The position numbers were made by a program, and so were the translations under genes. DNA of 40,017 bases from a virus. The stretch covers positions 1-40,017 of IMG/VR virus record IMGVR_UViG_3300034200_001065. The stretch is one strand, 5' to 3'. Below are positions 7,950 through 22,656 of the stretch, one piece after another. The first letter of the stretch is position 1; each line of letters begins with the position of its first letter. The notes beneath the pieces are model-generated. The model was not told the DNA's origin, made no database searches, and saw nothing but the letters and a program-made list of their open reading frames with translations.

Positions 7950-8528
7950 TTATGATTCCTCTATATCCCAAACAACAGATTTATCTGCTGTTCTTTCTTT
8001 TTTATCAAACACAAAAAGTTGCAATGTAAATCTTACATCATCCTTAACTTTTCGAACTTCGTGACTTGCACCCCTAATAAAATTTTCATAACATGCAATT
8101 ACTGCATTGTTAACTTTAGGAGTAACAACATGCTCGTTATTGCTTTCGTCCCACCAAACAAACTCTCCGCCAACCGGCGCTGACAAAAATACTGTTAAGC
8201 TAAAAATACAATGGTCTGTATGCTTAGGTATATATCCGCCTATAGGTAATTTTTGAACTGCAATATCGCAATCTTTTAACCAACTTTTTTTATAGCATGG
8301 TAATATAGAATTATTATATAATTCATTGATAATTTCTAATCTATCTTTACCTAAAATATCGCATGTAAAACATTCTGGCGCTGTATTATTATTTGTTGCT
8401 TCCGAAGGCCATACATTGTAGCTACTTTTATCACCTGGTAGCAATTTGGCGTAAGACTCTATTATAGTAAGAGTATTACTAGAAAATAAATTTTCAAAAA
8501 CTTTATATTGTTTATTTTCCAATTGCAT
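7950..8528 (-). CDS. 2OG-Fe(II) dioxygenase (prolyl-hydroxylase-like fold)
   Basis: With the start at 8528 the protein has 192 residues and a complete 2OG-Fe(II) facial triad: HTD at 103-105, His156 in GASHEVRK, and Arg166 ten residues later to bind 2-oxoglutarate. GGEFVWWDE at 120-128 is the usual strand between them. These enzymes hydroxylate proteins, nucleic-acid bases or small molecules. The frame opens further upstream to 8594 inside queE; ATGs at 8534 and 8528 fit better, though neither has a strong ribosome site. The 17-bp overlap with queE suggests coupling, so a substrate related to the modified base is possible but not shown. Confidence 0.8.
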   Translation of the reverse strand: MQLENKQYKVFENLFSSNTLTIIESYAKLLPGDKSSYNVWPSEATNNNTAPECFTCDILGKDRLEIINELYNNSILPCYKKSWLKDCDIAVQKLPIGGYIPKHTDHCIFSLTVFLSAPVGGEFVWWDESNNEHVVTPKVNNAVIACYENFIRGASHEVRKVKDDVRFTLQLFVFDKKERTADKSVVWDIEES

Positions 8529-9402
8529 TACCATAAATGTGTACATGTACACGACTTGTATAGTTATACCCACGCTGTATTGCTTCGTCTGCAATCATGG
8601 CTTCTGTAATTTTGAGGCCTTCTAACGTACCACCAACACCCATAATCCATACTGGAAAATTACAGCCAGCATCACGAAATAGTTTCGTATTTTCTTCTAC
8701 TTCCCGCCAGCTCTCCTTGCTGCCATTTACAACAAACTTTAATTGTCCGTGCTTTGATACACGATCATATGAGGCAAGAACATCTGGCTTGATAGCCCTG
8801 TTGTGCTTTTCGCCTGCTGTACTCCAGAGTTTAGGACTTACGCTCCAGTACCAATCTCCACCATACTTCCAAAAGTATTCAGTGATAAACTGTTCTAATT
8901 CAGGTGTAAGTGGTTGTGTGCCATTAGTTTCAACTGTGATATTCTTAGGCATGTTAAGTCTACGACCAAACTCATTGAGAATAGCAATCATGCCTTCCTG
9001 AGACTTCTTAAGCATAGGCTCGCCACCAGTAAACACCATATGCGCCCATTGAGAACTCTTAGGATGTTGAAAGGTCCCGTTTGGTAATAGTGCTGTTAGG
9101 TTATCAACCGTTTCTTCGACACTACGCTCTGTAATAAGGTGGCTGTAGCGTTTACTCCAGGTATAACTGCTATCGCATCCCTTTTCAAAAACAGGCAAAT
9201 CCTCAACACGTTTGATATTACTAATATCAACTGTTTCAAACGGCAATTCATATGTATCAGGATTTGTTGGATCGCATTGACCAAATCCGTTACACTGTAA
9301 ATTGCAAAGGAAAAATCTTAGCCAAAGACTAGGAATACCTACATATTTTCCTTCGCCTTGAGCACTATAGAATAGTTCGCTGTATTTAATTGGTTTTTGC
9401 AT
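8512..9402 (-). CDS. queE: 7-carboxy-7-deazaguanine synthase QueE (radical SAM)
   Basis: QueE turns 6-carboxy-tetrahydropterin into 7-carboxy-7-deazaguanine using S-adenosylmethionine and a 4Fe-4S cluster. The 296-residue protein opens with the family sequence YSAQGEGKYVGIPSLWLRF, then CNLQC at 33-37, and has GGEP at 126-129 for SAM binding and a KFVVNG strand later. The third cluster Cys does not follow at the usual spacing. Phe40 stands there, and GCDSSYTW (Cys76) looks like the displaced equivalent of the usual CDTxYTW segment, so about 36 residues are inserted. A further Cys43 lies in the insert. At 296 residues it is longer than many bacterial QueE proteins (about 210-250). It overlaps the gene on each side. 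Confidence 0.9.
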   Translation of the reverse strand: MQKPIKYSELFYSAQGEGKYVGIPSLWLRFFLCNLQCNGFGQCDPTNPDTYELPFETVDISNIKRVEDLPVFEKGCDSSYTWSKRYSHLITERSVEETVDNLTALLPNGTFQHPKSSQWAHMVFTGGEPMLKKSQEGMIAILNEFGRRLNMPKNITVETNGTQPLTPELEQFITEYFWKYGGDWYWSVSPKLWSTAGEKHNRAIKPDVLASYDRVSKHGQLKFVVNGSKESWREVEENTKLFRDAGCNFPVWIMGVGGTLEGLKITEAMIADEAIQRGYNYTSRVHVHIYGNAIGK

Positions 9403-9925
9403 GTTTCATTTGTCTCATTAAAGATTGATGATCTAACTGTTCAAGAATATGTGTAATGTTAGATGAATCGATGTTACCATATGAATCTCTAAAAGCATCT
9501 AATACAACACTATGCATACTCATAGGATCATTATCTGTACTATCCTTCAAATCTAGGACTGCTTCGATAATAATCAAGTTTAAAGAATAAGTAAACAGTT
9601 CTTGCAAACAGTCAGCTTCAAAAAATATACGACCATAATTTAATATACTGAAATACATTTTATCATTAATTTCAGTTGTTTCAATGCCGTAAATATCGGA
9701 GCCGTTGGGATCAGCAGTACAATTTAACTTAATTACAAATGGTGTTTTGTCTGTTAGATCAACATATGTGTCGAGGCATTCAAACACTTCGTCATCAGTA
9801 ACTAAAAATCTATTCTTAATCCAATCAATAGATTTATGATCAGCTACTGAATCGCATACTTCTGATATAGGTACGTTATTTCTATCAATAACGTGGATGT
9901 TATGTGGTCCTTTAGTTTTAATCAT
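9386..9925 (-). CDS. Hypothetical protein between folE and queE, 179 residues
   Basis: I recognise no family. The protein is acidic, with beta-rich N-terminal and middle parts (HNIHVIDRNNVPI, PFVIKLNC, KMYFSILNYGRIFF) and a helical C-terminal third (EQLDHQSLMRQMKHAKTN). It has no metal, nucleotide-binding or membrane motif. It starts 3 bp after folE and overlaps the queE start by 17 bp, so it belongs to the same operon and is translated in step with queE. This makes it a candidate partner in 7-deazaguanine synthesis or simply an embedded phage gene. Confidence 0.6.
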   Translation of the reverse strand: MIKTKGPHNIHVIDRNNVPISEVCDSVADHKSIDWIKNRFLVTDDEVFECLDTYVDLTDKTPFVIKLNCTADPNGSDIYGIETTEINDKMYFSILNYGRIFFEADCLQELFTYSLNLIIIEAVLDLKDSTDNDPMSMHSVVLDAFRDSYGNIDSSNITHILEQLDHQSLMRQMKHAKTN

Positions 9926-9928
9926 AAC

Positions 9929-10738
9929 TTACCTTGGCGCAAATTCTTGTTGTAGTTTAATGTTGTCAAAGAACTCTTTCTTTGCGCCGGGATCTTCTTT
10001 GAAGGAACCTTTAAGCACAGTAGTCTGTGTTAAACTACTGTGTGCCATAATACCTCGGTTCTCACAACAACCGTGTGTTGCTTGAATATATACACCTAAG
10101 TTTTTTGCTCCGGTGGCCTTTTCGATTTCCCTAGCAATGTCATTAGCAAGTTCCTCCTGGAGAGTTCCACGTCTAGCGCACCACTGGGCGATACGGGTGT
10201 ACTTGCTGAGGCCGATAAGTTTCTCGGCAGCAATAATGCCAATATAAGCAACGCCACTAACGGGTTGGTGATGATGGCTACACATACTGCGAAGCTCACT
10301 GCGAACAACAAGCATACCTTCGTAACGGTCCGCCGAGTCATTTGGAAACGCTGTTGCGTCTGGTGCTGGTTCATATCTTCCTGCCATTATTTCATTAAAG
10401 TACATTTTAGCTAATCGACGAGCAGTACCCTTACTGTTAGGATCGGTATCACGGTCAATAAGTAATCGATCTAATACTAACTCGAAAGCTTCAGTAGCTT
10501 CGTCAATTAGTTTATGCTTAATATCTTCTGTAACATAATCTGAGACATTGTCACCTGCCCAGAATCGTTTGTTATCGCGCCTCATTTTAAAGCGAATAGC
10601 ATCTGCTAGATAGCCTTCTTCGTAATTTTTATCGCTCATATCGCCGGCGCCTTTTTCTATTGTAACATGCTCGTCTATCCTAAACGGTTCTCTTTGATCT
10701 CCGTTTATTAAATTATCAAGTTTAAATTTTTGTGTCAA
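9929..10738 (-). CDS. folE: GTP cyclohydrolase I (FolE), TTG start
   Basis: The enzyme opens GTP to dihydroneopterin triphosphate, the first step shared by folate and 7-deazaguanine synthesis. The catalytic core is plain: TARRLAKMYFNE at 105-116, the zinc site CSHHH at 153-157 with Cys224/225 in THGCCENRG, and the family segment GLSKYTRIAQWCARR at 176-190. An N-terminal extension of about 75 residues precedes the core. The start is a TTG at 10738, chosen because GGAG lies 8 bases upstream; the first internal ATG at 10639 has a weaker site. A near-consensus promoter at 10781-10809 lies upstream. It is the first gene of the run folE, unknown, queE, 2OG oxygenase. Confidence 0.93.
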   Translation of the reverse strand: MTQKFKLDNLINGDQREPFRIDEHVTIEKGAGDMSDKNYEEGYLADAIRFKMRRDNKRFWAGDNVSDYVTEDIKHKLIDEATEAFELVLDRLLIDRDTDPNSKGTARRLAKMYFNEIMAGRYEPAPDATAFPNDSADRYEGMLVVRSELRSMCSHHHQPVSGVAYIGIIAAEKLIGLSKYTRIAQWCARRGTLQEELANDIAREIEKATGAKNLGVYIQATHGCCENRGIMAHSSLTQTTVLKGSFKEDPGAKKEFFDNIKLQQEFAPR

Positions 10739-10780
10739 GTTAAAATCTCCGAGTTATAGACGTGGATGTCTAGTAAGTTA

Positions 10781-10809
10781 ATTATATAGACAAAAATATG
10801 TTTTGTCAA
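10781..10809 (-). promoter_or_regulatory. Sigma70-type promoter of the folE-queE operon
   Basis: A perfect TTGACA (10809-10804), 17-base spacer and perfect TATAAT (10786-10781) on the minus strand. The expected start is near 10774, leaving a leader of about 35 bases before the TTG start of folE. The site lies in a clear intergenic gap. Confidence 0.85.
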
Positions 10810-10833
10810 TGTTATTTAGGCAAACAATAAAAT

Positions 10834-11292
10834 TTACCACCATTTTTCCCATGGAAAAATGAACCATTGTGTATCTTCTGTACGACTAATTTCTCTAGAC
10901 GAGTAATCACAGCTAAATGGGCTTTCTAGGTTTTCAATAGCAACAGCAAAAATTAAATTTGTTTGATCCATTGTTAATGCTACTTCTGCTATTTCTTTTA
11001 GTGTAGCACCAGAATCACAAATATCGTCGACAATTAAAATACACTGTTGATCATATTTTTTGAATAGGTACTGTAGCTGTTCTACATTACGTTCATTGCC
11101 ACTACGTGTCTGCCACTGTATAGATTCAAATGGAATGTCGTAGTAATTACTTACTTTAATTCCAAAATCAGCGCCGCCACGCATAGGAGCAAACACTACA
11201 TCCGGCTTTATATTGTCTTTGGCTAGTTTGCGAATTACATCAGCGTAATAACCATTCATATCTTCGTGTGAAAGGTATTCGTACTTTTGCAT
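10834..11292 (-). CDS. Type I phosphoribosyltransferase
   Basis: This 152-residue protein has the PRPP-binding loop ILIVDDICDSGAT at 85-97 and an early APMRGGADFG segment at 35-44, as in purine (guanine/xanthine-type) phosphoribosyltransferases. The C-terminal FPWEKWW resembles the end of bacterial xanthine-guanine enzymes. It would join a base to PRPP in the cytoplasm. It directly follows galE (no gap), with AAGG 8 bases before its ATG. Near a 7-deazaguanine pathway, a role in salvaging guanine or a deazapurine base is attractive, but the substrate cannot be read from the sequence. Confidence 0.85.
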   Translation of the reverse strand: MQKYEYLSHEDMNGYYADVIRKLAKDNIKPDVVFAPMRGGADFGIKVSNYYDIPFESIQWQTRSGNERNVEQLQYLFKKYDQQCILIVDDICDSGATLKEIAEVALTMDQTNLIFAVAIENLESPFSCDYSSREISRTEDTQWFIFPWEKWW

Positions 11293-12273
11293 TTATTTGA
11301 CCTTTTGAACTTTCTTTTCCCATTCATACGAATGTTTAACGATGTCATCTAATTTATAAATTGGCGACCAACCAAATGCCGCAGATGCTTTAGTAATATC
11401 AGCATATGTTTTAGCAACATCTCCTGGTCTGCGTGACACAACCTCATACTTAATATCAGTATTGTTAACAGCATTAAATGTATTAACAACTTCTAATACA
11501 GATGCACTGTTGCCGGCACCTATGTTAAATGCTCCGCTATCGCCACCATCTTGCAAATAATTCATAGCAGACAAATGTGCTGTAGCAATATCAAATACAT
11601 GGGTGTAATCTCGTTCAGCGGTACCGTCGTTAGTAGGATAATCATCGCCAAAAATTTGTACTTTTGAATTATCAATTGCGGCTCTAGCTAAGATAGGTAC
11701 TAGGTGTGAGGCAGGATCTTGTGTGTAGCCGTGTTTAAGAGCTGGATCAGCACCTGCGGCGTTAAAGTACCTCAAAGCCGCAAAATTTAATCCATATGCT
11801 TTATGATAATCAACAAGAATGTCTTCTACCATCTTCTTTGTTTTACCATATGGAGAAACAGGATCTCTATCTGTAGGTTCTGGAGTTGGGAATACATCAA
11901 CCAACCCATAAACTGTGCTACTACTGCTGAATACAAAATTCTTTACTCCGGCCTTAACAGCTTGGTTAAGTAACGCAATTGTGTTAGCAACATTGTTCCA
12001 ATAGTATGTACCTGGATCTTCAACGCTTCTTGCAACTTCATGATCAGCGGCAAAGTGCATAATAGTATCAGGTTTAGTTAATTGAATAACACCCTTTAAT
12101 TGATGATTATCAATATCAAACGGATATTGTGTTACACCATCGATATCTTTTTTACGTCTATCAACGTTGATAACATTATGACCTGCATCAACAAGCAAAC
12201 GACATACCATGCCGCCTACAAATCCGCTGCCGCCTGTAACTAGTACTGTTTTTTGTGTTTCTTTATTTGCCAT
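11293..12273 (-). CDS. galE: UDP-glucose 4-epimerase (GalE-like extended SDR)
   Basis: The 326-residue protein has the NAD-binding GGSGFVG at 14-20, the SSSSTVYG segment at 116-123, and the catalytic pair Tyr142/Lys146 in PYGKTK. RYFNAAGADP further on is typical of UDP-hexose 4-epimerases. It interconverts UDP-glucose and UDP-galactose or the N-acetyl forms. AAGGAG precedes the ATG at 12273. Its first codons overlap the end of the glycosyltransferase gene by 11 bp, so the pair likely supplies and uses the same nucleotide sugar. Length is normal for the family. Confidence 0.9.
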   Translation of the reverse strand: MANKETQKTVLVTGGSGFVGGMVCRLLVDAGHNVINVDRRKKDIDGVTQYPFDIDNHQLKGVIQLTKPDTIMHFAADHEVARSVEDPGTYYWNNVANTIALLNQAVKAGVKNFVFSSSSTVYGLVDVFPTPEPTDRDPVSPYGKTKKMVEDILVDYHKAYGLNFAALRYFNAAGADPALKHGYTQDPASHLVPILARAAIDNSKVQIFGDDYPTNDGTAERDYTHVFDIATAHLSAMNYLQDGGDSGAFNIGAGNSASVLEVVNTFNAVNNTDIKYEVVSRRPGDVAKTYADITKASAAFGWSPIYKLDDIVKHSYEWEKKVQKVK

Positions 12274-13345
12274 GTTGCCTACTCCTTAAGACTTCGTAAA
12301 GCGCATTTCCACTAAAGAAGTCATTAGATAATTTCTCTCTTTGTGTTGTTAAATCATTTTTTAAACTATCGTAATTATCCATTAGTTGAATAATTTTATT
12401 AATAATATGTTCTCTATTTTCTAAATAAGATTCGTAATTTGTAGTCCAATCAGCCGGATATTTAAAACTGTCGATAGCCATTTCACTGTAACTTAATCTA
12501 TCCGGTATCAAAGGAATAGCATCTACAAGCACCCCCTCATACCAACTAATACCTAATGTTTCTTGCAAGTTGGCAGAGAATACCATCTTTGACTGCCCTA
12601 GTAAAGTATGATATTCATGCTTTGTTAATTTCTTATTTTGACAAATAACAAAATCATACTGCGGTAAATGTTTTGCTAAATCTTCAAAAATTTCAACTTG
12701 TTTTTCTGGCGCAAGTCTATGTGGAAAAAGAATTAAGTTTTTCTTTTCTAAATTCTTATAAGCATCTAAACTGTGCTCTAAGTACTCCATAGGCCAACCA
12801 ACTCTACGAATCTTGTGCAGTAGTTGTCTATCGATATCTCTATCATCATTCCAGAATGTATTTGTAAACATATCAATATGGAAATCTGTGGCATAAAAAT
12901 TATCGTCGAAGCATTCATACATACTCATTTCTGCATGACGCACCCAAGGTGCTTTGCCAATCAATCTACCTAAAAAGTCTGCAGGATCATAACTGCCGGC
13001 ATGCCACATACCACCGATCTTAATCTTAACACCTAGTAGTTCAGCCATATACTTGAGCTGTAACACAGTTGGATTCCAAGCATCAGTGTAAAGGAAATAG
13101 TCACCATCATTGACCTTACCTTCGGCAAACATCTTAGAAATTGTTTTAAGTTGTTCACTCTTCCAATAGTTAGTACCGCTAAAATTCAAAAATGCGCCTG
13201 GCGTTGTATCTTGCGGCGCATCGCCCGGCCCTGCAATAATCTCAACATCAAACCCTGCAGAACAAAGTTGCTCAGGTAAAAATTTCTTCCACTGAGCAGT
13301 ATATCGAGTTTCAACTGGTTCTAATTCTACTAGAAATATTTTCAT
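12263..13345 (-). CDS. GT-B glycosyltransferase
   Basis: The 360-residue protein has a Rossmann-like N-terminal domain and a C-terminal donor-binding domain with FPHRLAPEKQ at 207-216 (Arg210 and Lys215 contact the donor phosphates). ETLGISWYE at 262-270 follows the E-x7-E pattern of GT4-type retaining enzymes. There is no membrane segment. It is coupled to galE by an 11-bp overlap, so a UDP-hexose donor is likely. The acceptor could be phage DNA, a virion protein or a cell-surface glycan. There is no clear Shine-Dalgarno sequence at 13345, where the ATG lies 2 bp after the preceding small gene. Confidence 0.8.
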   Translation of the reverse strand: MKIFLVELEPVETRYTAQWKKFLPEQLCSAGFDVEIIAGPGDAPQDTTPGAFLNFSGTNYWKSEQLKTISKMFAEGKVNDGDYFLYTDAWNPTVLQLKYMAELLGVKIKIGGMWHAGSYDPADFLGRLIGKAPWVRHAEMSMYECFDDNFYATDFHIDMFTNTFWNDDRDIDRQLLHKIRRVGWPMEYLEHSLDAYKNLEKKNLILFPHRLAPEKQVEIFEDLAKHLPQYDFVICQNKKLTKHEYHTLLGQSKMVFSANLQETLGISWYEGVLVDAIPLIPDRLSYSEMAIDSFKYPADWTTNYESYLENREHIINKIIQLMDNYDSLKNDLTTQREKLSNDFFSGNALYEVLRSRQHGK

Positions 13346-13347
13346 TT

Positions 13348-13524
13348 TTACTTTTTCTTTTTGCTATCTTCAAGTTCAAGATTGCCATAATCTACTACGT
13401 GTGTAATAGGATCATTTAAACTCTGTGCATAGTTATTTAGACTATCAGCAGTAGCCCTATCAACTTTTTCAGGTTGAGGGACTACTGCTTTGTCGTCAGC
13501 ACTATTATCTGGTGCTGTACTCAT
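13348..13524 (-). CDS. Small polar, probably disordered protein, 58 residues
   Basis: AGGAAG lies 4-5 bases before the ATG at 13524, so I use that start rather than the in-frame codon 18 bases upstream. The sequence is Asp/Ser/Pro-rich with a lysine tail (EDSKKKK) and no hydrophobic core, so it is probably unstructured. It sits 1 bp after the Bax-inhibitor gene and 2 bp before the glycosyltransferase gene. Function unknown. Confidence 0.5.
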   Translation of the reverse strand: MSTAPDNSADDKAVVPQPEKVDRATADSLNNYAQSLNDPITHVVDYGNLELEDSKKKK

Positions 13525-13525
13525 T

Positions 13526-14203
13526 TTACTTCCTATCACCAAAAAGATTTAGTAAGTTAAGGAATAGGTTAATGAAATCCAAGTACAATGTTAATGCACC
13601 TGAAATTTCAGCACTATCATCAAAGTTACTGTACATAATCTGCTCACGGATCTTTTGAGTATCGTATGCAGTTAAACCCAGGAAGATGATGATAGCTAAT
13701 GCGCTTACAACCATTTGTATAAGTGTGCTACCAATAAAGATATTAATAAGACTTACAATAATAATTGCAATTAGTCCTACAAACATAAATTTGCCCATAC
13801 TATCTAGGTTAGTTTTTGTAAAATAACCGTACACGCTCATTGTACCAAATAGTACAGCGGCACCCATAAAAGCACTAAAAATACTGCCCATAGAGTACAC
13901 AGCAAAGATAGTTGCAAAGCTCAAACCCATCAAGGCCGCAAAGCTATGCAATACTAGTAGCTTACCTGAGCGACCAATACCTGAGTTAAGCAGTACTGGT
14001 ACAGCAAAGATAAATGCTAGCGGTGCAAAAATTACAATCCACTTGGTAATACCAGTAAAGAAAAATTGCAATAGGTCAGGTGATGTACCAACAAAGTAGC
14101 TTACTACCATGCTGGTAAGCACGGCAAAAAACATATTGTTGTACACACGAGCCATAGCAAGATTAATATCACTAGCTGTCTTAATGGTTGTATCAAACGA
14201 CAT
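13526..14203 (-). CDS. Bax inhibitor-1 (BI-1/YccA/TMBIM) family membrane protein
   Basis: The 225-residue protein has about seven hydrophobic segments and the family C-terminal signature: GLTAYDTQKIRE near 178-189, then GALTLYLDFINLFLNLLNLFG close to the end. Bacterial members include YccA, which inhibits the FtsH protease, and BsYetJ, a pH-dependent calcium leak channel; the conserved Asp residues of the second half fit that family. In a phage it would sit in the host inner membrane and could modulate FtsH, ion balance or lysis timing. AAGGAG precedes the ATG. It lies 11 bp after the histone-like gene. Confidence 0.88.
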   Translation of the reverse strand: MSFDTTIKTASDINLAMARVYNNMFFAVLTSMVVSYFVGTSPDLLQFFFTGITKWIVIFAPLAFIFAVPVLLNSGIGRSGKLLVLHSFAALMGLSFATIFAVYSMGSIFSAFMGAAVLFGTMSVYGYFTKTNLDSMGKFMFVGLIAIIIVSLINIFIGSTLIQMVVSALAIIIFLGLTAYDTQKIREQIMYSNFDDSAEISGALTLYLDFINLFLNLLNLFGDRK

Positions 14204-14214
14204 TATACTTCTCC

Positions 14215-14403
14215 TTAGGCTGCGCTGGCAGCATTCTTCTTGTCTTGAATCTCGGCGCGACGAACCTTTGACAACTTGCCAATTTCGCCTAGTGCCTTAC
14301 GAGCACGAGCCGCCGCGGCCTTAACGCCCTTGACTTCAAATGCATCTGATTCTTTAACATACTCTTCAAAAAGAGCTTTTAATTTTAAGTGTGTCTCGGT
14401 CAT
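14215..14403 (-). CDS. Histone H1-like (Hc1-type) small basic protein
   Basis: The 62-residue protein is helical, starts with a conserved acidic helix (KLKALFEEYVKESDAFE) and continues into an Ala/Lys/Arg-rich helix (KAAAARARKALGEIGKL). This matches small bacterial proteins annotated as histone H1-like or Hc1-like. Such proteins bind and condense DNA non-specifically. AGGAG precedes the ATG at 14403. A TTGACA with a weak TATTTT lies at 14422-14449, overlapping the end of the QueD-like gene. It could help pack or protect phage DNA, but the family call rests on composition and pattern. Confidence 0.55.
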   Translation of the reverse strand: MTETHLKLKALFEEYVKESDAFEVKGVKAAAARARKALGEIGKLSKVRRAEIQDKKNAASAA

Positions 14404-14421
14404 GTTTTTCTCCTATTATTT

Positions 14422-14449
14422 AAAATATGTTGGACCATTTACCTGTCAA
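14422..14449 (-). promoter_or_regulatory. Possible promoter and inverted repeat at the end of the queD-like gene
   Basis: On the minus strand TTGACA (14449-14444), 16 bases, then TATTTT (14427-14422). The -35 lies in one arm of an 8-bp inverted repeat (14442-14449 with 14459-14466) that spans the queD-like stop codon. There is no T-run, so I do not call a terminator. Confidence 0.35.
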
Positions 14450-14451
14450 TC

Positions 14452-14826
14452 TTATTGCTTGACAGGAAAATCAATTTCGCAGCCGTTTTCATTATCTTCG
14501 GCTACAGAAATCTTTAGCCAGCGGTTAGGATACTTCTTAGTAATCTCCACTGCTAAATCTTCTGCGATCATCTCGCAACTCTTATGATTCAATTCAAGCA
14601 CGCCTTCGCTGTACTGGCGTTCTAACCAACGCTTGAACTGAATAAATTCAATGTCTCGGTCATCGTGGAATACTTCGATCCAGACTTTAAAATGGAAAAT
14701 GTGCCTGTGCGGCACACCTAGAAAACTTACATCATCCCAGCCGCCTGTGGCTAACTTAGGATCAGTATCGGCACCTGGATACATATGGATGCCTTCTTTT
14801 TGGAATGTAACCCAAATAGTTTTCAT
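14452..14826 (-). CDS. queD: QueD / 6-pyruvoyl-tetrahydropterin synthase-like protein
   Basis: The T-fold family converts dihydroneopterin triphosphate, the FolE product, into 6-carboxy-tetrahydropterin. In this 124-residue protein His14 (GIHMYPG) and His40/His42 (PHRHIFHF) align with the three zinc ligands. IEFIQFKRWLE matches the usual IIDFAELK region, SCEMIAEDLA replaces PTSEVLA, and Glu110 (VAEDNENGC) fits the base-binding Glu. The catalytic Cys before the second His and the LDHxxLN Asp-His pair of E. coli QueD are absent. It may use other residues, catalyse a variant step, or be a non-catalytic relative. It overlaps the 63-residue membrane protein gene upstream in an ATGA. Confidence 0.6.
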   Translation of the reverse strand: MKTIWVTFQKEGIHMYPGADTDPKLATGGWDDVSFLGVPHRHIFHFKVWIEVFHDDRDIEFIQFKRWLERQYSEGVLELNHKSCEMIAEDLAVEITKKYPNRWLKISVAEDNENGCEIDFPVKQ

Positions 14827-15014
14827 TTATTTTCCTTGTTTTCTTTTACTCGCTTTAACAGCTCTTCGTGAATATCGTGTTCGTAATACTTACCTGTTTC
14901 TTTTCTTAAGCGATTACGTTCTGAAATATACTGGTTTGATTCAATAATAAACCAAATTAGCACAATACAAAATATACACACCGCGATTGCTGTTGCTACT
15001 TCGTATAAGGTCAT
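14823..15014 (-). CDS. Small single-span membrane protein, 63 residues
   Basis: One hydrophobic segment at about residues 6-24 (VATAIAVCIFCIVLIWFII) is followed by a charged tail of 39 residues, so it is probably an inner-membrane protein with a cytoplasmic C-terminus. It is coupled by ATGA overlaps to the 60-residue gene upstream and the QueD-like gene downstream. It could be a spanin-, holin- or anchor-like protein, but no family is recognised. Confidence 0.55.
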   Translation of the reverse strand: MTLYEVATAIAVCIFCIVLIWFIIESNQYISERNRLRKETGKYYEHDIHEELLKRVKENKENK

Positions 15015-15193
15015 TTGTTAAACTCCTTTTCAATCTGATCTAACTCTTCTGGAAACTTAGCACCACACTTGCGAATGAATTTAATAAACTTCATAAAAAC
15101 TTCTTGTAGTTCTTGTTCAGTTTCCAAGCTATCAATCTTTAGTGTAGTGCTTACTACCACTCCGTCATCGTCACATTCTAATTTTATATTCAT
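15011..15193 (-). CDS. Small hypothetical protein, 60 residues, nearly leaderless
   Basis: An acidic N-terminal beta hairpin (KLECDDDGVVVSTTLKI) is followed by helical FMKFIKFIRKCG. There is no Shine-Dalgarno sequence before the ATG at 15193, and the putative promoter at 15202-15230 leaves a leader of at most a few bases, so translation may be leaderless. It heads an operon of a small membrane protein and the QueD-like protein. Function unknown. Confidence 0.55.
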   Translation of the reverse strand: MNIKLECDDDGVVVSTTLKIDSLETEQELQEVFMKFIKFIRKCGAKFPEELDQIEKEFNK

Positions 15194-15200
15194 ACTAGTT

Positions 15201-15214
15201 TATAGTATACTATA
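15201..15214. promoter_or_regulatory. 14-bp perfect palindrome over the -10 region
   Basis: TATAGTATACTATA is its own reverse complement and covers the -10 of the promoter at 15202-15230, ending 8 bases before the ATG at 15193. It is a candidate operator for a dimeric repressor, although AT-rich palindromes also occur by chance. Confidence 0.4.
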
Positions 15215-15230
15215 ACTCCTGGGTTGTCAA
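15202..15230 (-). promoter_or_regulatory. Sigma70-type promoter before the 60-residue gene
   Basis: TTGACA (15230-15225) is perfect and overlaps the stop of the upstream gene. The -10 is either TATACT at 15209-15204 (15-base spacer) or TACTAT at 15207-15202 (17-base spacer). Confidence 0.55.
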
Positions 15231-15754
15231 TCATTTTCTGTATTAATATCAGTATCTTCGGTGTATTGATCCCAATATGTATATTTGTCCTTGGTCATTA
15301 ACTCATTTAATTGATGAGTCCATACACCCGGGTTACTGAATCCCCAAGTTCTATCGTCAATCTTTACGGTTGTATTATAATTGAACGATTTAATATATGG
15401 TATCTTCACACTAATCATAGGAACAAATTTATCATGTTCGCACCAACCGCTGTCATGAAACCAGGGATGATTAGCATAATCAACATCAAAATCTAAAGTG
15501 ACCCAAAACTTTTCTTTTAGGCATCCAGTAATAACTTTGTCCCATTCATCCCAATCATCGTTTGTTGGGTTGAAACTTTGGCTAGTACCAAAATAAATTT
15601 GCTGTACATTATGTTTTCTAGCCTCTGTAAGGATTTCTTCTAGAGGCGGAGTACCAACAACAAAGAGCGTAAACATACCATGGCATACAGTATGCTCAAC
15701 TTCGTAGCCTGTAAAATAAACTATGTTTTGTCTTTCTTCAGTATTTAGTCCCAT
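15227..15754 (-). CDS. Hypothetical phage protein, 175 residues, end of the dpdA operon
   Basis: Not recognised. The N-terminal half has alternating strands and helices (NIVYFTGYEVEHTV, FTLFVVGTPP, ILTEARKHNVQQIYFG) suggesting an alpha/beta fold. The middle is rich in Trp, His and Asp (DYANHPWFHDSGWCEHDKF), residues that could bind metal. The tail is acidic. It overlaps the dehydrogenase gene by 10 bp and so is the fourth gene of the chain dpdA, Gfo/Idh/MocA, dehydrogenase, this gene. A link to base modification is guessed only from position. Confidence 0.6.
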   Translation of the reverse strand: MGLNTEERQNIVYFTGYEVEHTVCHGMFTLFVVGTPPLEEILTEARKHNVQQIYFGTSQSFNPTNDDWDEWDKVITGCLKEKFWVTLDFDVDYANHPWFHDSGWCEHDKFVPMISVKIPYIKSFNYNTTVKIDDRTWGFSNPGVWTHQLNELMTKDKYTYWDQYTEDTDINTEND

Positions 15755-16644
15755 TTAATATAGCCTCTACTATAGCCCTGCGGGCGATTAATTCCGTCAG
15801 CAAATGCTTGCTGCCATTCGGTTTTTCTATTATAACCTTTTGTCCAGAAACTGTCAACATTAATATGATTGTTTTCAATCATCCAAACAGCATCTTCCAT
15901 GCATCGATGAAATCCGTGACTGCGAGGACTTGGTCTTATTGTAGTACATGCCTTCCACAACTGCGCTTGTGCTTCATTTTTAGAAATCGCTTTTCCGATT
16001 CCGTCGATGATTAGTGCATTGTTATTGAGATTAATTTCGGTTCCTAATTCATATTTGCCTGATAAATCAATAACAACATCATATGAGGAAGTTGTGTGTA
16101 ACAACAAATTATCTCCCCATAACTCTTGATTGCTTGTACCTAACACATCGATAATAAATTTTAAATTTGATGAAATAAGTTTATGGTATGCAACCCATGC
16201 TAAAAATCCGCTGCCAATAATTAACAAATTACTGTCCACACCTTGTCTACTTTTGATTTCATTGATTGCTTGGTCGACAATATTAATACCACAAGCTACT
16301 GGCTCGATGATATACTTAGGGTGTACTTCGGGAATAGTGACATATTCATTGACACGCACATTGTAAAAATCTGCATAGGCAGGCTCGCCACGTGTAGCAA
16401 CAAAGTCGCCGACTTGTGTTGTGCCAATGCCACTACCTACTTTGGTTACAACCCCAAGGCCTTCATGACCTTGCATGTGTAAAGGTAGTGGACCAAAGTT
16501 ACCTTGCATCATGTCAATGTCACTGCGACATACACCAGTCATTAGTGCTTTGACCTCAATCTCGTATTCATTAAGTTTCGGTTTACTGTATTCTACTTCT
16601 TCAAAGTAGCCCTGTCCGTTAGTTTGTAAGCATTTAACTATCAT
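15745..16644 (-). CDS. Medium-chain (zinc-type) dehydrogenase
   Basis: The 299-residue protein has the GroES-like domain of alcohol dehydrogenases, with catalytic-zinc ligands Cys39 (GVCRSDID) and His60-Glu61 (QGHEGLG), and VGDFVATRGEP after them. A Rossmann segment LLIIGSGFLAW lies near 141-151 and Glu114 (IIEPVACG) fits the family. The four-Cys structural zinc loop is missing and the protein is shorter than the usual 340-380 residues. It overlaps the Gfo/Idh/MocA gene in an ATGA. Fusions of these two enzyme types occur in bacterial surface-sugar clusters, so a sugar substrate is one option and the modified base another. Confidence 0.8.
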   Translation of the reverse strand: MIVKCLQTNGQGYFEEVEYSKPKLNEYEIEVKALMTGVCRSDIDMMQGNFGPLPLHMQGHEGLGVVTKVGSGIGTTQVGDFVATRGEPAYADFYNVRVNEYVTIPEVHPKYIIEPVACGINIVDQAINEIKSRQGVDSNLLIIGSGFLAWVAYHKLISSNLKFIIDVLGTSNQELWGDNLLLHTTSSYDVVIDLSGKYELGTEINLNNNALIIDGIGKAISKNEAQAQLWKACTTIRPSPRSHGFHRCMEDAVWMIENNHINVDSFWTKGYNRKTEWQQAFADGINRPQGYSRGYIKWD

Positions 16645-17522
16645 ATTTGTTCAATTTGTCTATGGATCCACATATCTTGTTCATATTGTGACTTCCAGAA
16701 TTTATCATTATTTAGGTTTTCGACAGCAGTCTTAATCATTTTTTCGTATGCTTCTTCAGGACACAAACCTAGATTAAACTTTAAAATATTTCCATCCTTT
16801 AAGTGAAAAGAAATACTACTATCATCTTCTTTATTATTTTTCCAATTTGCTGTAAGCATCCAATTTGTATTTTCAGTATCAACGAATTCAAATGAACAAA
16901 AGTCATCTACATTATAAATTCCGTCCTTATTAACAACACCATAGTCTGTATCATCGATATCACTTAAGGTATATTGTTGATGTGCAAGTACATAGTTTTT
17001 TGTAGATGCAATATAGTCTGTTAATGCTGTAAAATAGCTTAACATATGAGGGATAAGATCCCTACTCACACCGCCAAATGCTAAATTTTTTGTTGTGAAC
17101 CAACTGCCCGGTTGTGGAATTCTATTTTTACTATCCCAACGAATGTTTACAGCATTGCTTTCTTTAGCAAGACGTTTAAACTCGTCAATTTCTGCTCTAT
17201 ATTGGTTGTTTTTAACCATCATAACCCTAGCGTCAAAATCTTTAATAAGATTGTGCCAAGCAGTATGATTAATAACTCCAGGCTTTTCAACAAAAATTAT
17301 ATCGGCATATGGAGCAACTTGTCTTGCAAGATTTTCATGTGTGTAGTTGGGCGTACAAATATGCACTATATCAAACTTGCCGTGATCTCTAACTGCATGA
17401 TCAACATTAGTGTAATTTGCACCGTCTTTTAAATCAACAGTGCAAATTTCATAACCAAGTTTAGAAAGTATAGGTTTATAAACTGCTTGCCCAAAACCTA
17501 AACCTACTATAAGTGCTTTCAA
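16641..17522 (-). CDS. Gfo/Idh/MocA-family oxidoreductase
   Basis: The 293-residue protein has the N-terminal Rossmann sequence VGLGFGQAVYKPIL at 6-19, then VHICTPNYTHENLA and the signature EKPG at 79-82. The C-terminal domain keeps GGVSRDLIPHM, placing a His where family members have a catalytic residue. These enzymes oxidise or reduce sugars and cyclic polyols with NAD(P). The gene begins inside the stop codon of dpdA (ATGA) and ends in an ATGA with the dehydrogenase, so all three are made together. The substrate is unknown. Confidence 0.85.
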   Translation of the reverse strand: MKALIVGLGFGQAVYKPILSKLGYEICTVDLKDGANYTNVDHAVRDHGKFDIVHICTPNYTHENLARQVAPYADIIFVEKPGVINHTAWHNLIKDFDARVMMVKNNQYRAEIDEFKRLAKESNAVNIRWDSKNRIPQPGSWFTTKNLAFGGVSRDLIPHMLSYFTALTDYIASTKNYVLAHQQYTLSDIDDTDYGVVNKDGIYNVDDFCSFEFVDTENTNWMLTANWKNNKEDDSSISFHLKDGNILKFNLGLCPEEAYEKMIKTAVENLNNDKFWKSQYEQDMWIHRQIEQI

Positions 17523-19084
17523 TTTAACGACTCCGGATCGAAATCACCAGACATAGCAGGATCCATCATTTCATCTTCACGACTGACCGATTCGTCATGC
17601 ACCGATGTAGTAGATTCTTCAAAGAAACTAACATCTAGATGTGTCTCGGAAGCAAAGCTACCAAAACTGATCTCTTCTAAGAATTTACTGTACTTGTCAA
17701 TAAGTTCATAAGGATTCGGACATGCTGGATCTAGTACTTCTTTTACAAAGCTATCAAAGTAAACAACACTGTAAGGAACATAAGGACTAAACTCGTTTGT
17801 CCCTTTACTTGTTTTGTCATTGATCCAATCACTGTAGTGAACAGGTGCTCTAAACTTTTCAATATCAGCCAATCGATTGGCTTCTTGAACGGCAGTAATA
17901 TGATTGTAAACGCTGTGAGACATATAGTAGAGATAACTCTGTGTGTCCCAGCTTGTACTATCTTTACCCTTAGGTTTGCCGTTACGATCCAAGTCGCCCT
18001 CTTCCATACAGCAAAGATCACCTGCAACTAGACGCTCCATAATAGGACTGTTAAATGGCATAGGCATTGTACTACCTTTTAGCTTTTGATTATCAAAAGC
18101 GCGATCCATAAAATAACCAAATCTCTTAGGAGAAAAATAGTTGTATGCGTATGTTTGACCATACGCTGTATTAACGAATGGACTGGCAGCATCAAAGCTA
18201 AGTGTAATATTTGGACTATCGTGCTTACGTAGCATACGTTGGATACTGGTTAGATAACAAGCCCAATTAAGTTTACCTGTACCAAGGAAGTGAATCCAAC
18301 CTTTGCCTTCAAGCAAACCATCTTCACGTAGTTTAAGTAAACGCTTTAGCGCGATAGGCATGTTACGCATGTTAATACCAGCAAACGCATAACCTTCCAG
18401 TGTGCGATTAGCGTCACCATAAGCAGTAGCAACAAATTTAGGGTCACTAAAATGTTTAACACTTTCGTACCAGTCATCTGCGCTCTTTTGATCGGTACCA
18501 GAAAGAACATTTAAAAACTTAGTAGCACCTGGTACACGATTGCGTACAAAGTAATCTAAGTTAAGTAAACTGATATCAATAGTATCTTGAATCTTAGTTA
18601 GTCCTGTCTTTTTACTAAAAGGAGGAACAGCCGCAAAGCCTGGGATATCTAGTGTCATAGCCCAATCGGACGTATGTTCGAGCCAACGAAGAATCTTTTC
18701 ACATAATTCAATTCTGCTAGGATCATTTGGATCTTTAGCATTAGTCCAGTCTAGTTTTAGTACGCCTTTAGCAACCTGGAAACCGCCAGAGTCACCTAGT
18801 ACAGTTGTAATTCCTCTGTTACGCTTTTGAACCATAGGTTCTTCGGCATCGCTCTTAGCAGGATCTAGATGAGCATGGCCTGCTGAGTATAGTCCATATG
18901 GATAATGATAATATCCGACACTCGGATCTAAAAAGTCTAGACCGGCATTACCTCTTTCAAATCCTGGCGGAGTTCTCCAGTCGGAAGGGTTAGATAGTAA
19001 CTTGTGTAGCTGTTTTGTATAAAAGCTACTGATAGCAGGTAAGTATACCGCATAGTCGCTTTGACGTTTTCCTAAGTCTTTCAT
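17519..19084 (-). CDS. dpdA: DpdA-like DNA (or tRNA) guanine transglycosylase
   Basis: The 521-residue protein resembles tRNA-guanine transglycosylase (TGT). GDSGGFQ at 97-103 matches the substrate-binding Asp segment, LDIPGF (Asp146) lies in the pocket region, HFLGTG at 265-270 matches the backbone-binding loop, and LSFDAASPF puts Asp298 where TGT has its nucleophile. Phage relatives (DpdA) exchange guanine in DNA for a 7-deazaguanine, protecting it from restriction enzymes. FolE, QueE and a QueD-like protein in the window support that reading over tRNA editing. The canonical TGT zinc site of Cys/His is not obvious. A weakly conserved acidic C-terminal tail of about 40 residues follows. AAAGG lies 7 bases before the ATG, 3 bp after the clamp gene. 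Confidence 0.85.
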   Translation of the reverse strand: MKDLGKRQSDYAVYLPAISSFYTKQLHKLLSNPSDWRTPPGFERGNAGLDFLDPSVGYYHYPYGLYSAGHAHLDPAKSDAEEPMVQKRNRGITTVLGDSGGFQVAKGVLKLDWTNAKDPNDPSRIELCEKILRWLEHTSDWAMTLDIPGFAAVPPFSKKTGLTKIQDTIDISLLNLDYFVRNRVPGATKFLNVLSGTDQKSADDWYESVKHFSDPKFVATAYGDANRTLEGYAFAGINMRNMPIALKRLLKLREDGLLEGKGWIHFLGTGKLNWACYLTSIQRMLRKHDSPNITLSFDAASPFVNTAYGQTYAYNYFSPKRFGYFMDRAFDNQKLKGSTMPMPFNSPIMERLVAGDLCCMEEGDLDRNGKPKGKDSTSWDTQSYLYYMSHSVYNHITAVQEANRLADIEKFRAPVHYSDWINDKTSKGTNEFSPYVPYSVVYFDSFVKEVLDPACPNPYELIDKYSKFLEEISFGSFASETHLDVSFFEESTTSVHDESVSREDEMMDPAMSGDFDPESLN

Positions 19085-19087
19085 TAA

Positions 19088-19843
19088 TTAACCTTTAGCC
19101 GGAAGTAGATATGTGTATTCGCTGATACCGCTATCAACTTTAATTTGAAGTAGACCTTTATTGTTAATGCTGAGTACAACATTTGCATTATCACCTAAAC
19201 GCAAAATCTTAAGTACAATATCCAGTGGCCAACGGAATTCGTTCTTAGTCTCTCCGTCAACTCCTTCAGCAATAAGGATCTTTGTACGATCGCTAACGCC
19301 GTCGCCAATATGGAAAAACAATTTATTGCCTTCTGTCTTTGGCATAAATGTAGATTCATATGCACCTAGTACACTATTAAAGTAGCCCAGGTCCTTTAGA
19401 TTCTTTGCAGTAGGTACAATATTAATATCAAACTCTGCGCCTTTAAACGTAATGTCCTTAAGTTGCTGATTAACTACGTCAGCAAGCATAAAGCGATAGT
19501 TTGCATCAGTGCCATCAGCACTAACAAACTTAACCTCAACCGGAACGTCAACTTCGTTACGCTTTTGCGTAACAACAGCAACAGTTGCGGCTTCATCATC
19601 AAACCCTGGATACTTCAAATATCCATCCAGTACGCTCATGCGACTGAGTCCAACAGTAGCATCAACAAAGTCTGCTACAGGATTAATTGTCTTGCCTTTA
19701 AAGATAACAGTCTTGTCTGCGTCAACAGTTTCAATTCTTGTTTCTTCAAGTGTGCCGGAAATCTTCACCATTTCGAAGATGCCTAGACTGTGCGTATGTT
19801 TAATAACGTCTTTGAGTGTGTCTTTGATATAATTATTTGCCAT
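19088..19843 (-). CDS. 45: DNA polymerase sliding clamp (T4 gp45-like)
   Basis: At 251 residues (T4 gp45 is 228) the protein has two similar beta-rich domains, with strands such as FEMVKISGTLEETRIETVD, KLFFHIGDGV and NVVLSINNKGLLQIKVD. It ends in YTYLLPAKG. Trimeric clamps of this type tether the polymerase and, in T4, also activate late transcription. It is followed by dpdA and lies 70 bp downstream of the polymerase gene. TAGGAG precedes the ATG, and a near-perfect promoter at 19866-19894 serves it separately from the polymerase. The late-promoter octamer elsewhere agrees with clamp-dependent late transcription, which is inference. Confidence 0.85.
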   Translation of the reverse strand: MANNYIKDTLKDVIKHTHSLGIFEMVKISGTLEETRIETVDADKTVIFKGKTINPVADFVDATVGLSRMSVLDGYLKYPGFDDEAATVAVVTQKRNEVDVPVEVKFVSADGTDANYRFMLADVVNQQLKDITFKGAEFDINIVPTAKNLKDLGYFNSVLGAYESTFMPKTEGNKLFFHIGDGVSDRTKILIAEGVDGETKNEFRWPLDIVLKILRLGDNANVVLSINNKGLLQIKVDSGISEYTYLLPAKG

Positions 19844-19913: not shown

Positions 19914-22595
19914 TTAGAAAGTAAAGAACTCTTGAAGTGCTTCACTTTCTTTTGTTTGAGATAAATCCCATCCCATTTGTCCTAGAACGTTTTCAATTTT
20001 CTTGTCCAACACAGCTTCTTCCATGCCAGCGTCATCGAAGGGCATATCTTTGAACCATTGAGGTAGATTAAGTTCGTCAGTTGGATATGCAATACTGCTA
20101 TAACCCATAGCATTATTTTTTAAGCGACAAACAATAACCTTCATACCATCTGTGATAGTCATGCTATAGTTGTCACCAAATGCTTTCTTAATATCATTCC
20201 AATTAATACTTGCTCTTACATGTCCTGGAATCATGTTATTGCTAGATTCTTCCTTAAGCGCATCTAACTTATACAACTTCATATTTTCTGTTTTTCTGGT
20301 ATTACGAAGTTTTTCAGTATAGTTAGTTAGGTTATTAACACGCTTAGGCATGCCTTTCTTCCAAGATTCTAAACTTTGGAAATTCTTTTTAAAACCTTTA
20401 ACCTTATCGATAACATCCTTTTCAGACACACCGCTTAGTGCATCGTTGAGTACTTCTTCTAAAAAGTCTTGTACAAATTCTGGCGTATCACTGCGCTTAA
20501 TTTCCATGCCCATGATCTTTAGCTTACCCCCTTCTGGTTGGTAACCTTCGATATCAAGACACTTGATTGCGTAACGCTTTTTAGTAATAAACAGTCCTGA
20601 ACGACCAACTACTTCTCGGCCTGCCTTAAGAACCTTACCATTCTCGTAAGGAACATTAAATTCCTTATTTAAGAATTCTGGAAAGTCGTCACTTACTGTA
20701 TCACTGATATGGTCGTACAGTTTAACAGCACTGTCTAGATCAAGTTCACTGCCTTCTGGTAATGCAGGTACCGCAGTAAAATACACAGAGTCAGTATCAC
20801 CATAAATGATACAATCACCTAGGTGGTCAAATTTACCTAAAAGCAATTCATTTGTCTTACCGGCCATGAATCGTGTAATACGTCTACCGGTTAGTGTAGT
20901 TGACTGTCCAATGCGCTTATCGAAGAAACGACAGCCTGGATTCAAAATAGCACCATACAAGCTGTTCAAGTTAATTTTCTTAACCAGCTGACGCTTATCC
21001 CAGAACGCTTTTTCTTCTGATGTTGTTGCATCTTTCTTCTTAGCTTGTAGTTCTTTACGTTCACTGTACCAGCGTTCTAGCAACCCTGGAACAATGCCTT
21101 GGAAGTCTGTTTTAAAGATAGTCCCATTAGCACTGATGTTCCACGGTTGGCCGCTGTTGAAAATAAGATTGTAAACATCCGCACCGGTAACGTCAATGGA
21201 AGAACCATCCTCCATATCCAGCTTCATTGTATGATTAACATCTTTATCAATTACAAATTCAAACTCGTTGGTACCAAACTTACCTAACCAAGCATCAGCA
21301 AAACTTGCCTTTTCAAGTTTAATTTTATTGTTGATTTCTTCATCAGTATAGTCTGGGCGTAACTGACCTACAATGGTTTCAGCAGCCATGTTTAGTGCGC
21401 GGAATACGCTAGGATATAGACTGTTAATGTCCATACTACCTACCCATTCGTGATAGCCTTTCTTTGGAAAAGCCACATATGCACCTGCGGCTTGCGTATC
21501 GCCGCGCTCGCTTCTATTACGATCAGGCACGATAAATCCACGTCGATGGGCTTCGTTAATGATAGCTTGCTCAGTAGTTGCCACAGCACCCATTGTTGTA
21601 GGCAACAGCACAGTATTATCGTGTGCAATGGTGTTAGCAAGGTCAATGAACTGTAGTTTCTTATCCAGCTTGTTAAGTAGTACAGTATCTTGAATGTTAT
21701 ATTCTAAGAACTTTTCAAAATCGTGATTGTAAAGTCTATCTAACGAACCTTCATAAGCAACCTTACGTTCGCCAATTTCCATCTCACCGATATAGTCTAG
21801 TCGATAACTGTGACGCTCTTCATAGTTATACTTACGATATAACTGCATATAGTCTAGGTGGACACGACCAACTAAATCATAAGTTTGACGCTGACTTCCG
21901 TATGCTTCGTATTCACGCACTGTGGGCATTTGATCCCACAGGCATAGTTTACGTAGCTCACTCTTACCTAGTGTCTTAATGATTCGGTTGGTCGTGTAAG
22001 GAATATCATAGCCTTCGCTGTTCCAACCACTGAGAATGTCTGCATCTTCAATAAGAGTAAGAAATACTTCAAGCATTTCTTTTTCTGTCTTAAACAGCAA
22101 CACTTCTGGCATGTTACTAGCGATGCTTTGCGCCTGTTCCCAAGTAAGAGTCTTGGGTGGTACAGCAAGACAAATCATTGCATCTTGCCATTGGAGATAC
22201 ACACCGATAGCAGTAATGGGCATGAATGCTTCCTCTGGATCAGCATAACCACGAGCTGGATCAAAGTCCACCTCGATATCGAAAAATGCTGTTTGCAGTT
22301 TAGGCGTATCAGCACCAGCGTAATGCTTGGCTATAGTTTTGTTGATTGGCTTAATGTCGCTTTCAAACTTTTTAACATGGCTGTTAATTGCAACATTTTT
22401 ACGGAAGTCTTTGATGTTCTTACATCGTACTTCGCTTACTGGATCACCGTAAATACTACGGTGACTTCCACGTGGATCGGCAATATAAAAATTATATTCA
22501 GGCTTGTAATCTACAAGTATTCTTTTGCCGCTAACTCGTTCAACTACGCGAATCAAATCCGCAGATTTGTCGTAGAACGCATCTACATAACTCAT
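19914..22595 (-). CDS. 43: Family B DNA polymerase (T4 gp43-like)
   Basis: The replicative polymerase has 893 residues from the ATG at 22595 (T4 gp43 has 898). An upstream in-frame TTG at 22613 is possible, but the GGAG there serves the ATG, if with a longish spacing of 12. The 3'-5' exonuclease motifs are DIEVD at 106-110, SGWNSEGYD at 189-197 and YNIQDT at 299-304. The polymerase motifs are MDINSLYPS at 388-396, INLNSLYG at 541-548 and YGDTDS at 598-603. The end EALQEFFTF resembles a clamp-binding tail, fitting the sliding clamp encoded just downstream. All catalytic residues are present. Confidence 0.95.
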   Translation of the reverse strand: MSYVDAFYDKSADLIRVVERVSGKRILVDYKPEYNFYIADPRGSHRSIYGDPVSEVRCKNIKDFRKNVAINSHVKKFESDIKPINKTIAKHYAGADTPKLQTAFFDIEVDFDPARGYADPEEAFMPITAIGVYLQWQDAMICLAVPPKTLTWEQAQSIASNMPEVLLFKTEKEMLEVFLTLIEDADILSGWNSEGYDIPYTTNRIIKTLGKSELRKLCLWDQMPTVREYEAYGSQRQTYDLVGRVHLDYMQLYRKYNYEERHSYRLDYIGEMEIGERKVAYEGSLDRLYNHDFEKFLEYNIQDTVLLNKLDKKLQFIDLANTIAHDNTVLLPTTMGAVATTEQAIINEAHRRGFIVPDRNRSERGDTQAAGAYVAFPKKGYHEWVGSMDINSLYPSVFRALNMAAETIVGQLRPDYTDEEINNKIKLEKASFADAWLGKFGTNEFEFVIDKDVNHTMKLDMEDGSSIDVTGADVYNLIFNSGQPWNISANGTIFKTDFQGIVPGLLERWYSERKELQAKKKDATTSEEKAFWDKRQLVKKINLNSLYGAILNPGCRFFDKRIGQSTTLTGRRITRFMAGKTNELLLGKFDHLGDCIIYGDTDSVYFTAVPALPEGSELDLDSAVKLYDHISDTVSDDFPEFLNKEFNVPYENGKVLKAGREVVGRSGLFITKKRYAIKCLDIEGYQPEGGKLKIMGMEIKRSDTPEFVQDFLEEVLNDALSGVSEKDVIDKVKGFKKNFQSLESWKKGMPKRVNNLTNYTEKLRNTRKTENMKLYKLDALKEESSNNMIPGHVRASINWNDIKKAFGDNYSMTITDGMKVIVCRLKNNAMGYSSIAYPTDELNLPQWFKDMPFDDAGMEEAVLDKKIENVLGQMGWDLSQTKESEALQEFFTF

Positions 22596-22656
22596 GTGTG
22601 TATCTTTCTCCAAGCATCATTTTAAGGCTGACGCACCACCAAGTATATTTAAAATT

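Follow-up and report, generated by a model that had tools for sequence, protein, structure and literature searches.

A QueD-fold protein in the operon place of QueC in a phage 7-deazaguanine DNA modification cassette

Results

We analysed a 40,017-base stretch of viral DNA (the window), which is the whole of the linear IMG/VR record IMGVR_UViG_3300034200_001065 and a fragment of a larger phage. It carries a cassette in which FolE, QueE and a DpdA-type transglycosylase lie together with a small T-fold protein (14452–14826) and a glycosyltransferase. The system belongs to a known class, phage 7-deazaguanine DNA modification. What is new is that the T-fold protein, of QueD fold, belongs to a family of its own, takes the place of QueC and most likely tailors 7-carboxy-7-deazaguanine (CDG), and that the module includes a dedicated glycosyltransferase. 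On balance we favour the reading that this cassette makes a 7-deazaguanine base and inserts it in phage DNA by a branch avoiding QueC and preQ0. The original prediction had named FolE, a QueD-like protein, QueE and DpdA here as parts of a phage 7-deazaguanine system. Pfam and PHROG profiles and AlphaFold2 folds bear out the positions of the four genes, and the profiles, a tRNA-guanine transglycosylase (TGT) fold and a link to DpdA2 bear out the nature of the system. The cassette genes are all on the minus strand, with a family B DNA polymerase and a putative sliding clamp upstream, and since the same gene order is seen again across dozens of related records, the arrangement is not random.

The T-fold protein differs from QueD in its catalytic residues

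The TGT-like and QueD-like proteins needed structural work because neither matches Pfam, even at an E-value of 10; searching PDB sequences with profiles of DpdA and of the T-fold family yielded no informative match, and structures were hence predicted. The T-fold protein accordingly has no PF01242 match, and its sole family match is phrog_17812, of unknown function. When its AlphaFold2 model (pLDDT 88) was compared with the PDB by Foldseek, PTPS/QueD structures were retrieved, among them E. coli QueD (4ntk/4ntm), at an E-value of about 1e-4 and prob 1.00. In the family alignment H14, H40, H42 and E110 are invariant, and by their place in the sequence they appear to be the counterparts of the zinc histidines and the anchoring glutamate of QueD. 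The position of the QueD catalytic Cys is taken by Leu36 and the Asp-His pair is missing in all aligned members, whereas canonical phage QueDs in the same alignment retain both the Cys and the DH. The family has an invariant Ser83-Cys84-Glu85 of its own, which is retained even in phiST and MA9V-3 at about 30% identity. The “QueD-like” T-fold protein is therefore not the QueD of the pathway, and we designate it a candidate 7-deazaguanine-tailoring enzyme, on the basis of its predicted structure, residues and gene linkage. The T-fold domain also occurs at the C-terminus of longer open reading frames in Vibrio phage Bakedbeans (L062:7215-8366, 383 aa) and Chryseobacterium phage MA9V-3 (L065:7398-8279, 293 aa), neither of which matches Pfam.

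The GenBank records of 11 T-fold phages were searched whole (PA5oct, phiST, ACP17, Phosso, RHph_I1_18, X1, Ahp1, Bakedbeans, D479, BUCT-ZZ01 and MA9V-3). A separate PF01242 (PTPS/QueD-family) match was found in every one, weakly in Ahp1 and D479, and in four large window-type records a QueD that has the C..HGY and DH motifs is encoded tens of kb from the cassette. Of the GTP-to-CDG route originally proposed for these genes, FolE and QueE thus stand, but the T-fold protein as its QueD does not, given the missing catalytic residues and the separate QueD in the 11 phages. In PA5oct, FolE and two PTPS-family genes lie close together (NC_071039.1, 168575-171944; L043, L048, L050), about 55 kb from the DpdA/T-fold cassette.

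A PF06508 profile search detected no QueC in the window, in agreement with the original prediction, which by itself says little since the record is only a fragment of a larger phage. Canonical QueC was likewise found in none of the 11 whole GenBank records. PF06508 has no match in PA5oct, phiST, ACP17, Phosso, RHph_I1_18, Ahp1, Bakedbeans, BUCT-ZZ01 or MA9V-3, while the matches in X1 and the relative G004 are NAD synthases and were rejected as QueC. Such phage NAD synthases (NadE) are encoded at L030:1030-1950, in a window relative, and at L070:1369-2199, in Xanthomonas phage X1. D479 and two window-type records carry PP-loop proteins (L069:1336-2142, L164:1045-1692 and L165:970-1713) that partly match the C-terminal (zinc) end of QueC; by reading, they contain neither of the QueC motifs VPxRN and YPDC (PMC13329287). 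In L164 and L165 the PP-loop gene is followed by one for a radical-SAM-like protein, again by reading. A QueC encoded elsewhere in the genome, one of the options first raised, is therefore unlikely, as the full records of relatives were negative or gave NAD synthases and divergent PP-loop proteins only; the same absence from related complete genomes favours another of those options, that CDG, or a compound derived from it, is the base inserted.

The T-fold gene occupies the place of QueC

Relatives of the T-fold protein are encoded by at least 599 IMG/VR stretches, from which 80 loci were retrieved by the T-fold sequence alone; neighbour-gene frequencies were counted over 99 T-fold loci of at least 10 kb. 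Among the loci retrieved by T-fold alone that had enough flank, DpdA was present in 57/59, the glycosyltransferase in 53/54, FolE in 38/44 and QueE in 38/41.

The position of the T-fold gene can be compared among phages with DpdA2, whose operons are similar. QueC lies directly beside DpdA2 in Vibrio phage nt-1 and Stenotrophomonas phage Ps15, while ACP17, X1 and BUCT-ZZ01 have the T-fold and glycosyltransferase genes instead. The order in ACP17 is QueD, a small gene, FolE, gp122, DpdA2, glycosyltransferase, T-fold, QueE and helicase, and that in Ps15 is FolE, three other genes, QueC, DpdA2, QueE, a small gene and helicase. Thus, the T-fold gene occupies QueC’s place in the operon. The Ps15 operon also includes a myo-inositol-1-phosphate synthase gene (L171:2520-3770). 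Vibrio phage 2.275.O encodes a DpdA of the window’s clade, QueC, a protein annotated as QueF and a YhhQ-type transporter, and no T-fold homolog of it was among the matches listed. A macro-domain neighbour in RHph_I1_18 found no support in Pfam and was set aside.

The substrate is suggested by Faecalibacterium phage Roos (54 kb), whose T-fold protein has the same HRH and SCE motifs. The gene after it encodes 303 aa with motifs that resemble those of TGT (DSGLF and CTSADSTSW, by reading), and the phage encodes a YhhQ-family transporter (PF02592, 2.4e-42). The Roos genome contains no FolE or QueE by their own profiles and no QueD by PF01242. As Roos lacks these three enzymes, the substrate of the T-fold enzyme is probably a completed 7-deazaguanine base rather than a pterin.

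A putative, divergent DpdA2-like transglycosylase

The gene at 17519–19084 encodes a predicted DNA transglycosylase of the TGT superfamily (521 aa), probably a divergent relative of DpdA2. Sequence searches of Pfam, PHROG, NCBIfam and the PDB found no match to it. Foldseek comparison of its AlphaFold2 model (pLDDT 86) with the PDB placed TGTs at the top (prob 1.00) and the DpdA structure 7ui4 at rank 17 (prob 0.99), with modest TM-scores of 0.3-0.5. By hhalign, its profile matched the DpdA2 family profile, which includes nt-1 DpdA2 (YP_008125322), at 93.9% and E 1.6e-7, and the DpdA2 profile in turn matched E. coli TGT at 89.5% and E 1.9e-6. Direct hhalign comparison of the window protein with E. 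coli TGT or with 9g and CAjan DpdA was weak, so that its tie to known DpdAs runs through DpdA2; its identities to reference DpdA and TGT proteins are very low, below what a tree could trust. A tblastn search with ACP17 DpdA2 returned no phage of the window’s DpdA clade among the matches listed.

In an alignment of 45 homologs from IMG/VR, D98 (DSGGFQ) and D298 (FD(C/A)ASP) are invariant, and position and motif identify them as the two catalytic Asp residues of TGT. None of the cysteines is invariant, which suggests that window-type DpdA does not conserve the zinc site of TGT. Cultured phages with homologs include the Pseudomonas jumbo phages PA5oct, MIJ3 and Paride, among others (51% identity), Sinorhizobium phage Phosso (31%) and Vibrio phage 2.275.O (35% over part of the protein). 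In phiST, MA9V-3, Ahp1 and D479 a protein of 260-290 aa adjoins the T-fold gene; we take it, from its motifs, to be another DpdA, with a weak best profile match (41.7%). The DpdA frame is broken in two at L093:7465-9004 and L011:10001-11557, by a frameshift, stop or insertion.

Proposed pathway

From the computed folds, residues and gene linkage, together with the absence of canonical QueC and the separate QueD in relatives, we infer a T-fold reaction, an inserted base, DNA as the target and a possible role of the glycosyltransferase as follows. FolE would form dihydroneopterin triphosphate. This would be turned into 6-carboxytetrahydropterin (CPH4) by a true QueD, either from another part of the genome or from the host, and QueE would convert CPH4 to CDG. 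The QueD-fold protein would then work on the base, most likely removing the carboxyl group of CDG to yield 7-deazaguanine, and the DpdA2-like transglycosylase would swap guanine in DNA for the T-fold product. A GT4-type glycosyltransferase, sometimes with GalE, would act in the same pathway in this lineage and five others. Taken on its own, CDG decarboxylation is our first choice for the T-fold reaction, with roughly an even chance of being right.

A glycosyltransferase is tied to the T-fold gene

The tightest neighbour of the T-fold gene, with a median distance of 704 bp in the testable loci counted above, encodes a putative GT4-like (GT-B) glycosyltransferase (12263–13345). The window protein itself has no Pfam match; its homologs in X1 and BUCT-ZZ01 match Glycos_transf_1/Glyco_trans_1_4 (PF00534 at 8e-12 in X1), and that in ACP17 does so weakly. 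Searched against 50,697 phage records, the window protein matched 20, and each of the 16 records with coverage of 80% or more is T-fold-positive. These 16 fall in five lineages (11 PA5oct-type, 2 ACP17, Phosso, X1 and BUCT-ZZ01), and the other four are partial matches, of which the one examined sits in an amino-sugar operon. The BUCT-ZZ01 glycosyltransferase as a query returned five records, all T-fold-positive. Next to the window gene lies that of UDP-glucose 4-epimerase GalE (11293–12273; NCBIfam TIGR01179, 7.4e-100, above the cut-off), a possible source of sugar donor, which is present in 64/99 T-fold loci. These two genes, which had no part in the original prediction, belong to the same cassette as T-fold and DpdA, and the glycosyltransferase is part of the module in six lineages, the window’s and the five others.

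Since the glycosyltransferase family is so tightly tied to the T-fold gene, a glycosylated deazaguanine is possible. Such a hypermodification would extend the proposed pathway and is compatible with it: the T-fold product in DNA would serve as a handle, to which the GT4 enzyme would add a sugar from the GalE pool. We hold this extension only tentatively. The glycosyltransferase gene adjoins or nearly adjoins the T-fold gene in the window group, PA5oct, Phosso, ACP17, X1 and BUCT-ZZ01, and its family is almost confined to T-fold phages, but T-fold phages without a neighbouring glycosyltransferase also exist (phiST, RHph, Ahp1, D479 and MA9V-3). PF00303, which covers thymidylate synthase and the hydroxymethylases, has no match in ACP17, X1, BUCT-ZZ01, phiST or three large window-type records. 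These phages thus do not make the hydroxymethyl-pyrimidine that usually serves as acceptor; PF00303 genes are, however, present in PA5oct and Phosso. The chemistry also speaks against it, as 7-deazaguanine has no hydroxyl to serve as acceptor, and the target of the enzyme could be a different base, a protein or a surface glycan. That T-fold, DpdA and GT4 form a dedicated glycosylated-7-deazaguanine module, shared by six phage lineages (Pseudomonas jumbo phages among them) and by hundreds of aquatic viruses, is, to the same degree, a speculative proposal. To our knowledge, no sugar-bearing deazaguanine is known from DNA, and our literature search found no report of one.

Alternative explanations

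The T-fold protein might instead be a second, divergent CPH4 synthase, that is, a QueD isozyme, with unmodified CDG, or preQ0 made by host QueC, as the inserted base. The retained QueD/PTPS fold and zinc histidines are consistent with this; CDG in DNA has been named as a target for liquid chromatography–mass spectrometry (PMC8306585), and its presence has been proposed for Mycobacterium phage Bipper, a phage without queC (PMC6884629). An isozyme is nevertheless unlikely, as the catalytic Cys and Asp-His are missing throughout the aligned family, a separate QueD coexists with a T-fold gene that sits in QueC’s operon place, and Roos has the T-fold protein without FolE, QueD or QueE. A TGT-like protein acting on tRNA, with the cassette raising queuosine precursors for translation, would suit the TGT fold and has been discussed for phages lacking DpdA (Hutinet 2019, PMC6884629), but is very improbable here: ARAGORN found no tRNA gene in the window, the TGT zinc cysteines are not among the conserved DpdA columns, the closest characterised relative is nt-1 DpdA2, from a phage whose DNA carries dPreQ0, and, like its counterparts in 9g and CAjan, the DpdA gene sits close to the DNA polymerase gene.

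Several points weigh against the QueC-avoiding branch itself. QueC is to be expected in hosts such as P. aeruginosa, and DpdA could still use host preQ0; the PP-loop proteins of D479 and the two window-type records might conceivably fill a QueC-like role. By the profile used, window-type records of 250 and 256 kb contain no QueD, and the window itself has no PF01242-type QueD, so that QueD may lie outside the record, be diverged or be supplied by the host. Many T-fold loci come from related phages and are thus not independent, although DpdA identities among them drop to 35-45% despite the many related viruses. In Roos, the base imported by the transporter may be one other than CDG. Finally, the choice of decarboxylation leans on DpdL, which Cui et al. 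(2023, Nucleic Acids Research) reportedly assigned CDG decarboxylation, in a QueC-less route to CDG or 7-deazaguanine in DNA; if it decarboxylates CDG, the T-fold protein may be this DpdL or an analogue. With these points counted, we still favour the branch that bypasses QueC and preQ0.

Other genes of the cassette

FolE, GTP cyclohydrolase I (9929–10738), matches PF01227 at 6.5e-38 and retains the zinc Cys/His/Cys in the alignment. QueE, the CDG synthase (8512–9402; phrog_2076, 4.9e-49), has the three radical SAM cluster cysteines (CNLQC ... GCDSSYTW), and roughly 45 extra residues separate the second of these from the third. This insertion is common to PA5oct, X1, BUCT-ZZ01 and Ahp1 and absent in 9g, CAjan, phiST and ACP17; T-fold phages hold two forms of QueE.

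A purine-type phosphoribosyltransferase (10834–11292; PF00156, 6.6e-16; phosphoribosyl pyrophosphate motif LIVDDICDSGAT) occurs in 69/99 T-fold loci, as well as in BUCT-ZZ01 and PA5oct, and might salvage the guanine that DpdA sets free. A conserved protein of unknown function (15227–15754) has no family match and is present in 80/99 loci; its homolog in ACP17 is encoded between FolE and DpdA2. Another protein of unknown function, small and encoded between FolE and QueE (9386–9925), is found in 27/99 loci, and a Bax1-I membrane protein of BI-1/YccA type inside the cassette (13526–14203; Pfam, 2e-48) in 12/99.

Between DpdA and T-fold lie genes for a Gfo/Idh/MocA-type oxidoreductase, which overlaps the DpdA stop (16641–17522; PF01408, 7e-7), and a zinc-alcohol-dehydrogenase-like protein (15745–16644; PF08240, 2e-10). 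Both were considered as base-tailoring enzymes and rejected, as only 6/99 loci have them, and we regard them as accessory; the pair occurs in few relatives (L013, L111, L115 and L119). A weak 2-oxoglutarate-Fe(II) oxygenase match that overlaps the QueE end (7950–8594; PF13640, 1.7e-4) was likewise dismissed as a cassette part, with only 7 loci. On the same minus strand, upstream of DpdA, a conserved neighbour (19088–19843; phrog_12062, no function listed) is a putative sliding clamp by synteny, its Phosso homolog being annotated as such, and further upstream lies the family B DNA polymerase (19914–22613; phrog_262, 5e-201).

Significance and comparison with known systems

Phage “QueD-like” genes comprise at least two families that annotation has merged, and in genomes that carry the one replacing QueC, the base in the DNA is probably something other than preQ0. 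With relatives in so many IMG/VR stretches, the route may be a common way of modifying DNA in large environmental phages. It also makes a concrete prediction for PA5oct, MIJ3 and Paride, culturable jumbo phages of P. aeruginosa; the acceptor of the glycosyltransferase may be a new modified base, and the DNA base may be an unusual, perhaps sugar-bearing one.

Among characterised systems, the preQ0/dG+ systems of nt-1 and Ps15 likewise combine FolE, QueD, in part QueE, and a DpdA2-family transglycosylase, and the Ps15 operon is similar in FolE, DpdA2, QueE and helicase. They differ in having QueC beside DpdA2, where the T-fold systems have the T-fold gene and the glycosyltransferase. The DpdA1 islands of 9g and CAjan share with the window the order polymerase, clamp, DpdA, FolE and QueE, but encode a separate canonical QueD plus QueC (CAjan) or Gat-QueC (9g, PMC6884629); their DpdA gave no confident alignment to the window DpdA, and no T-fold homolog was found in either. 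An anti-restriction role has been shown for CAjan, and of 65 phages with DpdA and upstream genes QueC was missing in two (Hutinet 2019, PMC6884629). Within the QueD/PTPS family, the T-fold and zinc histidines are common to QueD and the window protein, whereas the catalytic Cys and Asp-His belong to QueD only. The Arenbergviridae jumbo phages PA5oct, MIJ3 and Paride carry the genes of the window cassette in nearly its order, and no QueC. In the PA5oct type, polymerase, clamp, DpdA, glycosyltransferase, T-fold, phosphoribosyltransferase and QueE follow one another, FolE and the two PTPS genes lie apart as described above, and the cassette is mostly annotated as hypothetical proteins, while in the window T-fold comes before the glycosyltransferase.

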